Shown here piece by piece: positions 10,455 through 45,293 of a stretch of DNA of 64,000 nt. Numbering within the stretch: the stretch's first letter is position 1; each line of letters starts with the position of its first letter. The notes under the pieces were generated by a model. It saw only the letters and a program-made list of their open reading frames with translations. It was not told where the DNA came from and ran no database searches. The stretch is from an uncultured Prevotellaceae bacterium (lineage in GTDB: Bacteria > Bacteroidota > Bacteroidia > Bacteroidales > Bacteroidaceae). A program made the translations under genes and the position numbers. The DNA lies in NCBI GenBank assembly GCA_947169115.1, contig CAMVOK010000016.1:1-64000 (forward strand). Direction: 5' to 3'.

Positions 10455-11123
10455 TTACAATTCAAGGAAGTTGCGGAGTATGCGTTCTCCCACGCTTCCA
10501 CTCTTTTCGGGGTGGAATTGTGTGGCGTAGAAGTTGTCGCGGTGGAGGGCTGCACTGTAGGGCTGAATGTAGTCGGTCGTGGCGATTGTCCAAGAGCATG
10601 TCGGTACGTAGTAGCTATGAACAAAATAGACATACTCGCCTCCCTTGAAGCCTTGGAACAGCCCTTCAGGAATTAACTCTTCTTGCACAGCAAGCGTAGC
10701 CCCTTCGGATCGTCCGATTACACCCTTCATCCTTAACCCGTCACTATGCGTGAAACGCAGCTCATTCCATCCCATGTGGGGAACTTTGTCTTCGTGACGC
10801 TGAGGCTGAAAACGTAGAACTGGCACGTCGAAAATACCCAAGCAGTCAACATCTCCCTCTTCGGAATGTCGGCACATCAGTTGCTGACCGATGCAGATGC
10901 CAAGGATGGGCTGTTTGAGGTTTCGGATTACGTTATCCAAGCCATGGGCACACAGGTACTTCATGGCATTGCTGGCCTCGCCTTGCCCAGGGAAGATGAC
11001 TTTGTCGGCTTTGGCTATACGCTCGGCATTGTTTGTCAGCATGGGTTTGATGCCCAATCGCTGAAGGGCATGGATGACGGAGTAAATGTTTCCGGCGTTA
11101 TAGTCTATGATAGCAACCTCCAT
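10455..11123 (-). CDS. hisH: Imidazole glycerol phosphate synthase, glutamine amidotransferase subunit, with repeat-derived insertion
   Basis: The 222-aa class I glutaminase supplies ammonia to HisF. It starts MEVAIIDYNAGN and has the oxyanion segment FPGQGEA, the nucleophile in GICIGQQLM (Cys77), and the His/Glu pair in FHPEKSG (about residues 204-206). Between the conserved PHMGWNELRF and GEYVYFVHSYYVP it carries roughly 25-30 residues more than I expect for the family. Residues about 128-149 of that insert are encoded by DNA matching an intergenic repeat at 19283-19343. The catalytic residues are intact and the insertion sits in a surface-loop region, so the enzyme is probably active. Confidence 0.95.
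   Translation of the reverse strand: MEVAIIDYNAGNIYSVIHALQRLGIKPMLTNNAERIAKADKVIFPGQGEASNAMKYLCAHGLDNVIRNLKQPILGICIGQQLMCRHSEEGDVDCLGIFDVPVLRFQPQRHEDKVPHMGWNELRFTHSDGLRMKGVIGRSEGATLAVQEELIPEGLFQGFKGGEYVYFVHSYYVPTCSWTIATTDYIQPYSAALHRDNFYATQFHPEKSGSVGERILRNFLEL
10677..10742 (-). repeat. Copy of an intergenic mosaic repeat embedded in hisH
   Basis: Read on the coding strand, this segment contains GGGTTAAGGATG, TGTAATCGGACG, TACGCTTGC and GCAAGAAG in that order. The same four blocks occur in the same order in non-coding DNA at 19283-19343 on the plus strand. In hisH the blocks are kept in an open frame by a 6-bp insertion and altered spacers. Confidence 0.85.
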
Positions 11124-18257: not shown

Positions 18258-18560
18258 TTACAGCCGTTTTCGTATGTTTGTACTCCTGACTGCCTGTCTC
18301 ATCACAAAGAAACGCACCCACTTCGAAATAATGTTCTTCTGGTACTTCCTGATGAAAGCCTCTGCTGTCTTTTTGTCTTTGCCAGAAAGAGGTTCCTCGC
18401 CATCTTTTTCTCTTACCCTTATCTCAACAAGCTCGCCATCGTGCATGATTAGTTCGAAGATGCTCTGACATCCTCCGTGTGTCACATGCACATGGATGGG
18501 TTCATGCTCATTAGAGTAGAAGAAGAAAATGAAACCAAAGTATTCGAATATCTTGGGCAT
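18258..18560 (-). CDS. DUF4160 domain protein
   Basis: This 100-aa protein begins MPKIFEYFGFIFFFYSNEHEP and continues with the DUF4160 signature IHVHVTHGG, then a basic C-terminal half. It is the first gene of a two-gene unit with DUF2442 (the TAA is followed by AT and the next ATG). A -7 box TAACTTTG lies 20 nt upstream of the ATG. Proposed toxin-antitoxin membership is inference from the pairing and the small size. Confidence 0.85.
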   Translation of the reverse strand: MPKIFEYFGFIFFFYSNEHEPIHVHVTHGGCQSIFELIMHDGELVEIRVREKDGEEPLSGKDKKTAEAFIRKYQKNIISKWVRFFVMRQAVRSTNIRKRL

Positions 18561-18589: not shown

Positions 18590-18680
18590 AAAATAATGTA
18601 TAATGTACCGCTCGAAATTATGAAAAAATTTCGCTTGCGTAGTAAAACGGAGCAAGAATGTATAATGTATAATTTCTTTG
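18590..18680. repeat. Mosaic repeat: hairpin core flanked by ATGTATAATGT units
   Basis: A core running from CCGCTCG through CGCTTGCGTAG to AACGGAGCAAGAA is bounded on both sides by copies of the local micro-repeat ATGTATAATGT. The same core, with different flanking micro-repeats, occurs at 19480-19545. Confidence 0.75.
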
Positions 18681-18814
18681 AATGAGTGTTCGAATAGCTG
18701 CGCACTAATCCCCACTTTTCCACTGGACGCTACCACCCCTGCCTTTGCCACCGTCGCGATGCTCCCCAATTGCTCAAACACATAACTCGCAATTGCCTCT
18801 CCGGAGGAGGGGAG

Positions 18815-18892
18815 TTTGATTGCTACAATCAACACCTTTTGATTGGGCAACCATCATGCTTTGATTGCTGCAACCATCATATCTTGGTTGTA
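18815..18892. repeat. 22-23 bp-pitch array of TTTGATTG...CAATCA units
   Basis: Units start at 18815, 18838, 18860 and 18883 (last one CTTGGTTG), with steps of 23, 22 and 23 bp. The first unit is a partial palindrome, TTGATTG-CTA-CAATCAA. The sequence is closely related to the two units at 14420-14455. A short CTCTCCGGAGGAGGGGAG palindrome abuts it at 18798. Confidence 0.8.
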
Positions 18893-18908
18893 CGAACTGA
18901 GGGAAATT

Positions 18909-18991
18909 AGTGGGCAACGCCTCCGAGCGTTGCTTGCAGGAAATGAGGTCAAAAGACTGTCGTCCTGCAACGCTCGGAGGCGTTGCCCACT
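18909..18991. repeat. Inverted repeat with 25-bp perfect arms, each arm itself palindromic
   Basis: Arm 18909-18933 (AGTGGGCAACGCCTCCGAGC...) is the exact reverse complement of 18967-18991, with a 33-bp spacer. Within each arm GCAACGC and GCGTTGC form a second palindrome around CTCCGA. The nested symmetry resembles REP/BIME or MITE-type elements. No transposase ORF is nearby. Confidence 0.85.
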
Positions 18992-19029
18992 ATCTTTAAC
19001 TATGATAACACACACTCGGGCAGACACGA

Positions 19030-19185
19030 GACGTTGCCCGTGCGGGCAGTAGCCTTTGCGCCCGCGGACAATGTCCGTTGTCCGTATCGGACAGTGGCCT
19101 TTATTCCCTCAGACAATGCTCGTCGTCCGTATCGGACATGCAACGGCGTCCGTATCGGATAAGCATCATCGTCCCTACGGGCTAA
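19030..19185. repeat. 22.5-bp-pitch array of GTCCGTATCGGAC-like palindromes
   Basis: The GGACA (or variant) end of each unit falls at 19044, 19066, 19089, 19111, 19134, 19157 and 19179, giving steps of 22, 23, 22, 23, 23 and 22. The best units are palindromes GTCCG-TAT-CGGAC; others are degenerate (GCCCG-TG-CGGGC). An earlier unit near 19018 is doubtful. Confidence 0.82.
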
Positions 19186-19214
19186 CGACACGGCTCTCTT
19201 TGTCTGCACCTATC

Positions 19215-19550
19215 GCAAGAAGGGTGAAGGGTGAAGGGTTAAGGGTGAAGAGTGAAGGGTGAAGAGTGAAGGGTGAAGAATGAAGGGTTAAGGATGTAAT
19301 CGGACGGCGCAGCCTACGCTTGCAGAGCGAAGCGGGGCAAGAAGTGAGAGGTGAAGGGTGAAATGATAAATGATAAATAATAAGTGAGAAGTGAAATGAT
19401 AAATAATAAATGATAAATTCTCTAACCAGACGGCCAAAGGCCTACGCTTGGCTCGTCCAAGAATGTTCAATGCTCAATGTTCCGCTCGGCTTTGCCGCTT
19501 GCGTAGAGAAACGGAGCAAGAATGTTCAATTCTCAATGCATTAAATCTTC
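19215..19550. repeat. Mosaic of slippage repeats and hairpin cores upstream of the DUF1573 gene
   Basis: GTGAAGGGTGAAG-type micro-repeats (19215-19290) are interrupted by a core (TAATCGGACGG..GCCTACGCTTGC..GCAAGAAG, 19295-19343). GTGAAATGATAAATAATAA units follow, then a second core (GACGGCCAAAGGCCTACGCTTGGC, about 19430) and AATGTTCAATGCTCAATG units. A third core ends in CGGAGCAAGAATG, followed by AATGTTCAATTCTCAATG. There is no convincing gene between 18561 and 19612. Confidence 0.75.
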
Positions 19551-19612: not shown

Positions 19613-20044
19613 ATGAAAAAGAAGACATTTATTATTATGGCCTTGTCGTTGTTGGCATTTGGGGGCACACCCCTTGCACAGGCTGAAACGTCTGCTACGC
19701 TGACAAGTGTAGCACAGGCTGAGAAACAGGCAGAAATCAAGTTTGAGGTTACAAAAATAGACCTTGGGACTTTTGCAGAAAAGGATGGCGAGCAACGTTG
19801 CTCATTTGAGTTCACCAACGAAGGGGATGCTCCGTTGGTAATCAATCAGGCTTTTGCCTCCTGCGGTTGCACGGTGCCTACATATACCAAAGACCCTGTG
19901 AAACCCGGGGAAAAAGGAAAGATAGATGTTACTTATAACGGAAAGGGTAAGTTTCCCGGGCATTTCTCGAAGACTATCACCATCCGCTCGAATGCAAAGA
20001 CTGAGATTGTGCGTCTGACCATCGAGGGAACAATGACCAAATAA
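19613..20044 (+). CDS. DUF1573 domain exported protein
   Basis: The 143-aa product starts MKKKTFIIMALSLLAFGG, a signal peptide. The upstream 55 codons of the track ORF run through intergenic repeats and the promoter and are excluded. The mature part is a single DUF1573 Ig-like domain: FEVTKIDLGTFAEKDGEQ, then the conserved SCGCTVPTYTKDPVKPGE and a terminal TIRSNAKTEIVRLTIEG. Such proteins are periplasmic or surface-exposed, with unknown ligands. The next gene begins one base after the stop, so the two are coupled. Confidence 0.88.
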   Translation: MKKKTFIIMALSLLAFGGTPLAQAETSATLTSVAQAEKQAEIKFEVTKIDLGTFAEKDGEQRCSFEFTNEGDAPLVINQAFASCGCTVPTYTKDPVKPGEKGKIDVTYNGKGKFPGHFSKTITIRSNAKTEIVRLTIEGTMTK

Positions 20045-40100: not shown

Positions 40101-40122
40101 TAAATTTTGAAAAAGGAATTTG

Positions 40123-40232
40123 GTCAACCTTACGTCGGGGCTTCGTCAACCTTATGTCGAAGCTTGGTCAACCTTATGACGGAGCTCGGTCAACCTTATG
40201 ACGAGGCATGGTCAACCTTATGACGGAGGAGG
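40123..40232. repeat. 22-bp-pitch array of GTCAACCTTATGAC units
   Basis: Five units start at 40123, 40145, 40167, 40189 and 40211, exactly 22 bp apart. The first ten bases GTCAACCTTA are invariant, TGAC or TGTC follows in most, and the last 6-8 bases vary. GTCA...TGAC makes each a partial palindrome. The array lies immediately upstream of the lipid kinase -33 box. Confidence 0.92.
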
Positions 40233-45144: not shown

Positions 45145-45187
45145 AGCATATTTTTTCACATACGTATGCCTGTCGTGGAAGATTATT

Positions 45188-45256
45188 ATTGCGATGCCCG
45201 TAAGAATAGTATTGCGATGGCCGTAAGATTATTATTGCGATGGCCGTAAGAATGGT
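45188..45256. repeat. 23-bp-pitch array of ATTGCGATGGCCGTAAGA units
   Basis: Three units start at 45188, 45211 and 45234, with 23-bp steps and a conserved 18-bp part. A weak fourth match (GTTGCGATTC) lies near 45281, about two periods later. The array lies between the divergent promoters of the DUF3298 lipoprotein gene and mfd. Confidence 0.85.
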
Positions 45257-45293
45257 ATCTTTCGTGCCTTGGACAAGTATGTTGCGATTCATG

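Follow-up and report, generated by a model that had tools for sequence, protein, structure and literature searches.

The DNA analysed here, referred to as the window, is a stretch of 64,000 nucleotides from an uncultured Prevotellaceae bacterium. Between a DUF4160 gene (18258-18560, minus strand) and a DUF1573 gene (19613-20044, plus strand) it contains a repeat island holding four copies of one repeat family (cores, or units), all on the plus strand and in the same orientation. An initial annotation had recognized four cores here, and all are present, at most about 10 nt from where it had placed them. It had overlooked a fifth unit, which lies on the minus strand within hisH. The relevant features are given below; boundaries were read from the sequence unless another source is named.

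10455-11123, minus strand: hisH (imidazole glycerol phosphate synthase amidotransferase), which carries the fifth unit; phmmer match to 4gud_A, E=3.5e-40, with the alignment broken at the insert
10682-10720, minus strand: fifth unit, a 39-nt A-type copy lying in frame within hisH, to which it adds VIGRSEGATLAVQ; orthologs in relatives are without it
18590-18608, plus strand: AATGTAT micro-repeat left of unit 1
18609-18656, plus strand: core unit 1, B-type (CGCTCG... two hairpins ...GCAAG), within the AATGTAT array; also among the genome-wide copies
18657-18674, plus strand: AATGTAT micro-repeat right of unit 1
18908-18992, no strand assigned: perfect inverted repeat (computed), 26-nt arms at 18908-18933 and 18967-18992, 33-nt spacer, 100% complementary
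19032-19174, no strand assigned: 22-23-bp tandem arrays (GTCCGTATCGGACA...), here without a core (TRF)
19219-19296, plus strand: AAGGGTG heptamer array left of unit 2 (TRF)
19297-19341, plus strand: core unit 2, A-type (TAATCGGACGGC...GGGGCAAG), within the AAGGGTG/AAGTGAG arrays; also in the genome-wide copy list
19342-19422, plus strand: AAGTGAG/AAATGAT heptamer array separating unit 2 from unit 3 (TRF)
19423-19461, plus strand: core unit 3, A-type with a short right hairpin (CTTGGCTCGTCCAAG), within the AATTCTC/AATGTTC array
19462-19482, plus strand: AATGTTC/AATGCTC heptamers between units 3 and 4
19483-19520, plus strand: core unit 4, B-type, between AATGTTC heptamers; also in the genome-wide copy list; folds as two abutting hairpins
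19521-19541, plus strand: AATGTTC/AATTCTC heptamers right of unit 4

The sequence of the heptamer arrays shifts along the island, as determined with TRF, and the micro-repeat differs between copies in the way the initial annotation had described: AATGTAT at unit 1, AAGGGTG/AAGTGAG at unit 2, and AATGTTC/AATGCTC/AATTCTC at units 3-4. Its further statement that each core is flanked on both sides by the local micro-repeat needs correction in one detail: at unit 3, the GATAAATAATAA array on the left is absent on the right. The 22.5-bp arrays and the nested inverted repeat that it had listed are also real, and both are outside the core family. The former were resolved by TRF into arrays of 22-23 bp at 18838-18880, 19032-19138 and 19123-19174. 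Several unrelated 22-23-bp tandem arrays are found in the window as a whole (1691-1797, 18838-18880, 19032-19174, 40120-40228 and 45179-45258), some of them with an internal palindrome. The middle of the island recurs elsewhere, with 94.6% identity over 93 bp for positions 18717-18809 (L004, contig C2) and 78% over about 190 bp for positions 18815-19005 (L013, contig C6). A search of Rfam with the island gave no match at the curated score; the sub-threshold matches all fell on the 26-nt inverted repeat.

Comparison of the copies showed that a unit is about 36-50 nt long and begins with a 4-nt 5' tail, TAAT or AAAC in type A and CGCT in type B, followed by two abutting hairpins. Type A follows the plan [T/A]AA[T/C]-CG(GAC)-hairpin 1-(TA)CG-hairpin 2, and type B the plan CGCT-CGG-hairpin 1-CG-hairpin 2; both end in CAAG. 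Hairpin 2 takes the form CTTGC...GCAAG (with several inner forms), CTTGG...CCAAG or CTCGC...GCGAG. The sequence of hairpin 1 varies and yet stays paired, in 97.6% of the cells for type A and 97.4% for type B. The compensatory changes amount to 7 cells over 3 pairs in type A, where three of the four inner pairs are changed on both sides, and to 6 cells over 3 pairs with both-side changes in type B; in neither type did any of 500 shuffles reach as high a value. Folded as DNA, unit 1 forms two abutting hairpins, and the lowest-energy single-strand fold of unit 3 is an alternative long hairpin. Because the folding energy of single units was not reliably below that of shuffled sequences (z from -0.4 to -2.6), the case for structure rests on covariation. 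Units also occur head to tail in tandem, with the junctions CAAG|TAATCGG or CAAG|AAATCGG.

The island is not unique, a point on which the initial annotation had made its reading depend: the family is interspersed throughout the genome. The exact sub-pattern CTTGCGTAGN{2,8}CGGAGCAAGAA occurs in 44 copies in the 2.7-Mb host genome, as against 0 for the reversed control, and a second variant pattern adds further copies. The same sub-pattern is present in 59 and 54 copies in the genomes of two relatives (the latter designated G062). Most of the genus is without it, and only 5 of the 301 genomes sampled in the family contain it, where a count of zero applies to the exact sub-pattern and leaves room for other variants of the unit, which escape it. 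Copy number thus ranges from 0 to 59 among close relatives, and such patchiness is what mobile DNA typically shows. In a public genome collection, the sub-pattern was found in many rumen Prevotellaceae/Bacteroidaceae metagenome-assembled genomes (MAGs); these are drafts, in which short arrays are prone to misassembly. One core copy is located on a 126-kb IMG/VR contig, inside an open reading frame and near a ParA-like gene (L177:10549-10573). A segment of about 180 bp is repeated at four places in the genome (L007, L010, L017 and L022, around 1350-1600), and in three of these four places a core faces another core in inverted orientation.

To characterize the insertion sites, we collected the genome-wide copies and compared their flanks. 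Within a copy, the left flank resembles the right flank more closely than in shuffled pairings (63 clusters of the host genome, z=9.5). In the same flank test, the left flank showed no resemblance to the reverse complement of the right flank (z=-0.6). Where 7/8-periodic arrays are present on both sides, the period crosses the unit in exact register: the match at shift 0 is 81% for type A and 88% for type B, compared with 19-43% elsewhere. Nearly every unit is followed by AA, and type A units are preceded mostly by G, with C next in frequency. The arrays continuing in register across the unit therefore indicate insertion before AA without target-site duplication, with the reservation that a perfect array could hide the duplication of exactly one repeat period and that only empty sites outside arrays exclude it.

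Symmetrical flanks, which the initial annotation had led us to expect throughout the genome, are frequent and not universal. An array is present on at least one side of 53% of the cores in the host genome (39/74 with a 7/8-periodic array). For the N|AA sites of the window, the figure is 22% among intergenic sites and 3.8% overall, which makes the enrichment 2.4-fold over intergenic sites and approximately 14-fold over all sites. At the threshold used, nearly half of the host's cores have no array on either side. Cores lie in register inside 22-mer arrays as well (for example at L100 and L193), and in other genomes 22-mer arrays (AACCTATATTCGA... and AACGGCTTTTTCTCCTAGAAAG) also contain cores in register. 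Because some copies sit at sites without an array (L085, L010/L017), arrays are favoured as sites and are not obligatory.

Pairs of filled and empty sites, including empty orthologous sites (L155/L156 and the purL of L279) akin to those that the initial annotation had proposed to look for in related strains, define the boundaries of the insertion precisely. In a primase-like gene at L112, a 42-nt unit is present between AATTCTC and AATTGTC, and the homologous gene at L155 and L156 carries heptamers of a like kind without this unit. At L085, one of two paralogous segments is filled (L085:935), with the unit between ATTATGG and AATTC, and the paralog at L085:1708 has none. L010 is empty (AATACG|AATTC), compared with a type-A unit at ACG|AA in L017 and one more tandem unit in L007. 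In purL, a 39-nt unit is present at AAGGATG|AAGG in the host (L278), compared with an empty ortholog from the same genus (L279); the host protein reads VELGLIKD-[VIGRPEGATLAVQ]-EGLRVKN and the ortholog VELGLIKNEGLKAKN. No target duplication was found at the filled and empty sites compared (L112, L085, L017/L010 and purL). Wherever a comparison could be made, the array predates the core within it.

Units are mainly intergenic; 23 of about 200 are within long open reading frames. Inside these, the unit length is divisible by three in 19 of 23 cases, compared with 65 of 178 elsewhere (p=3e-5), an enrichment that is partly circular in that frameshifting inserts break the reading frame used for finding them, and a few of the 23 lie in antisense or doubtful reading frames. 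The host genes supported by Pfam encode FGAM synthase (purL), MATE, ResB/CcsA, CbiJ-CbiD, a DnaG-like zinc ribbon, a 2-hydroxyacid dehydrogenase and a TPP enzyme; Asn synthase and a DUF5110/fn3 protein are further hosts. In-frame units are carried by purL, MATE, ResB/CcsA, CbiD/CbiJ, the TPP enzyme, the 2-hydroxyacid dehydrogenase, Asn synthase, the DUF5110/fn3 protein and the hisH of the window. The hisH of the window aligns with a solved HisH on both sides of the insert, and hisH orthologs in relatives are without the 39-nt unit. The loops of hisH (L348-L377) and purL (L278-L307) that carry units show heptamer-like tandem growth without a core in several Prevotella-like species, so that the same loops of housekeeping enzymes accommodate the growth of tandem repeats as well as mobile inserts.

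Overall, these data suggest that the cores are probably copies of a non-autonomous, very small mobile element of about 36-50 nt, on which an enzyme may act in trans. The initial annotation had left it undecided whether the core inserts into existing micro-repeats or seeds the growth of flanking repeats, for example by slippage at the hairpin, in which case the arrays would be the core's product. The strong likeness of left and right flanks counts in favour of seeding. However, the window has many core-free arrays of these kinds, nearly half of the host's cores are free of arrays on both sides at the threshold used, the homologous sites L155/L156 have the array and no core, in contrast to L112, and the hisH and purL loops of different species have heptamer-like expansions without any core. 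From the empty sites, the growth of these loops elsewhere and the core-free arrays of the window, it follows that the arrays precede the cores, which insert into them, and the unbroken phase of the array across the core agrees with this. Seeding is unneeded, the core-free arrays speak against it as a general rule, and we regard it as very improbable; the evidence supports the conclusion that cores insert into existing arrays and need not seed them.

The compensatory changes that keep the hairpins, together with the mainly intergenic position of the units, would also fit functional RNA or DNA elements, such as terminators or mRNA-stabilising hairpins, that are held by selection and are not selfish mobile DNA. 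This explanation is improbable in view of the copy number of 0 to 59 among related species, the occurrence of both orientations relative to genes (22 ++ and 15 --), the in-frame insertions in enzymes and the tandem copies, and the island's lack of an Rfam match at the curated score. Draft MAGs, in which arrays are hard to assemble, raise the further concern that the family is an assembly artefact or a chance likeness of low-complexity intergenic DNA. Since the same unit is found in independent assemblies of many species, the exact-pattern control gave a count of 0, and single-copy coding genes carry insertions where their orthologs are empty, we give this concern almost no credence.

Under the preferred reading of the cores as a mobile element, an enzyme would act on them in trans. 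A whole-genome scan with PF01797 detected no Y1 transposase in the host genome. The conclusion that the genome has no HUH transposase was wrong, as tracing weak matches elsewhere revealed a divergent REP-transposase-like HUH family of 330-461 aa. Four genes of this family are present in the host genome, one of them with an internal stop (C7:85814-86872, C11:88986-90035, C12:75572-76624 and C18:47695-48723; loci L343-L346), and another member is located at L229:1246-2238. The motifs PDHxH and Y-x-x-x-NP characterize the family and are present in the two host genes inspected. The matches to REP_Tyr_transpos and Y1_Tnp are weak yet consistent; NCBIfam REP_Tyr_transpos matched the three members tested with E of about 1e-8 to 1e-9, under its cut-off. 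The family has a conserved C-terminal extension that Pfam does not describe. The best PDB profile matches of this C-terminal domain are to DprA, at E=0.1 only, and Pfam and NCBIfam gave no match; a DprA-like identity is a lead at most. The initial annotation had proposed a search for a transposase or reverse transcriptase acting in trans. The first part yielded these candidates, although without a positional tie to the cores; as to the second, an RVT_1 reverse transcriptase was rejected as the mobiliser, none being found in the host genome or in G062. A gene recurring next to cores was also rejected in this role, since the best cluster was a housekeeping ABC-F ortholog and not a transposase.

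Several observations would be accounted for if the unit were mobile without an HUH enzyme, through RNA copies, another recombinase, or host repair or template switching at hairpins. No cores were found at the ends of the host's HUH genes and no enrichment near them, with one unit in 120 kb around HUH genes. The co-occurrence of cores and HUH genes across genomes is weak (Fisher p=0.19 for presence and 0.06 for 8 or more copies), and many genomes have a gene of this family but no core of the present kind. In G062, which has 54 cores, no such gene was found, an exception that incompleteness of the MAG may explain. By strand, 34 of 72 core clusters are on the G-rich strand, as judged from local GC skew in a draft genome, and a lagging-strand bias is expected of IS200/IS605-like insertion. 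The small dispersed repeats (SDRs), a comparable tiny family, were reportedly proposed by Elhai in 2008 to move via RNA. CGTC REPs, which occur in Bacteroidetes, likewise have no known dedicated transposase (PMC3733652). Against these points stand the missing RVT_1 and the enzyme-like character of the insertions, whose precise ends, constant AA at one end and lack of duplication fit HUH elements. Mobility without an HUH enzyme is a real possibility, although on balance we doubt it.

The copies of the non-autonomous element that we favour were thus inserted whole, directly before AA and without target-site duplication. Their sites are intergenic arrays of 7/8-mers or 22-mers, simple sites, or positions beside an earlier copy, where tandem units result, and some units are carried in frame within protein genes. 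Arrays would be favoured because they present numerous AA targets, withstand insertion and may open up single-stranded slippage loops. Spread may occur by copying or moving a folded single strand, with an enzyme supplied in trans, most plausibly the host's own divergent REP-transposase-like Y1/HUH protein. We infer the link between this protein and the cores, so that the mobilising enzyme is a candidate, and its assignment, taken on its own, appears to us close to evenly balanced. It is conceivable, but we think unlikely, that a long REP-transposase-like HUH protein moves the two-hairpin units of Bacteroidales into slippage-prone heptamer arrays, in genes too, and that the array and unit together grow the loops of housekeeping enzymes.

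In the literature searched, we found no paper on the two-hairpin repeat, and the units seem to form a new family of mobile repeats of very small size. Very small non-coding repeats such as SDR (Elhai et al. 2008, cited in PMC2884548 and PMC3116915), RPE and CGTC REP are known in a few lineages. What the present family adds is a set of exact boundaries and empty sites, an array target already in place before insertion, structural covariation and a handful of candidate enzymes. It comes from a common rumen lineage, in which that literature does not seem to describe it.

The SDRs of Nostoc and relatives, the subject of work by Elhai et al. in 2008 (Genome Res), are reportedly tiny elements of 21-27 nt without coding capacity, with a structure kept up by compensatory changes. 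They often lie within heptamer arrays, form nested or tandem copies, and are patchy within the clade. The units described here are like them in their size of tens of nucleotides, structure, compensatory changes, heptamer context, tandem copies, patchiness and non-coding nature. They differ, in a comparison made by description, in belonging to another phylum and in having two abutting hairpins over 36-50 nt, and for the present units in-frame insertions in housekeeping genes and array-bearing empty sites are shown. Rickettsia palindromic elements (RPE), of about 150 bp, occur in frame inside unrelated metabolic genes, where they add a peptide in a tolerated place (PMC10969869). In-frame insertion into protein genes is shared by our units (hisH, purL, MATE, CbiD and others); unlike RPE, and again as compared by description, they are 36-50 nt long, mostly intergenic and strongly associated with heptamer arrays.

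With REP/REPIN elements, their RAYT transposases and CGTC REPs (PMC3116915, PMC3733652), the units share hairpin repeats, a high species-specific copy number and some copies in genes. CGTC REPs are defined by a CGTC tag, an 8-9-bp stem, a 4-5-nt loop and a CCA-like tail (PMC3733652). A point in common with them is the sequence CGGACG of type A units, which reads CGTCCG on the opposite strand. The units of our family lack a single 8-9-bp stem that ends in a GTAG or CGTC tag, and they have no CCA tail. We rejected membership in GTAG REP/REPIN, as the units stand head to tail and not as inverted doublets, include variants without GTAG, and do not flank the HUH genes. Membership in CGTC REPs was rejected on the short and variable stem of hairpin 1, the second hairpin and the CAAG end. 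Prevotella PINSR, an intergenic repeat of 188 bp (PMC4755523), and BrickBuilt of P. gingivalis, a MITE bounded by terminal inverted repeats and holding 23-nt repeats (PMC4596501), resemble our family in being amplified in related Bacteroidales and in having no clear enzyme; both are far longer, and PINSR is not described as inserting in micro-repeats. A MITE of a DDE transposon was rejected for the units themselves, whose two ends do not match in inverted orientation, whose arrays stay in register and whose non-array empty sites show no duplication.

In Bacteroidetes, TnpA-REP genes of subclass 2.6 have atypical hairpins on their flanks, and further copies of these hairpins occur at other places in the genome (PMC6006769). 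Y1/HUH-like (divergent RAYT-like) genes are present in the host genome as well, although none is bounded by the ends of the core. The HUH proteins are also longer than those of IS200/IS605 and subclass 2.6 (330-461 aa, with the C-terminal extension) and have PDHxH in place of NHxH, and no bias to one strand was seen in the strand count of 34/72 (local GC skew, draft genome). The units share with minimal elements derived from IS200/IS605 (PMC6006769) the hairpin ends, the lack of target-site duplication and a fixed short sequence at one end. In the way it works, the unit resembles a minimal hairpin transposon that leaves no target duplication.
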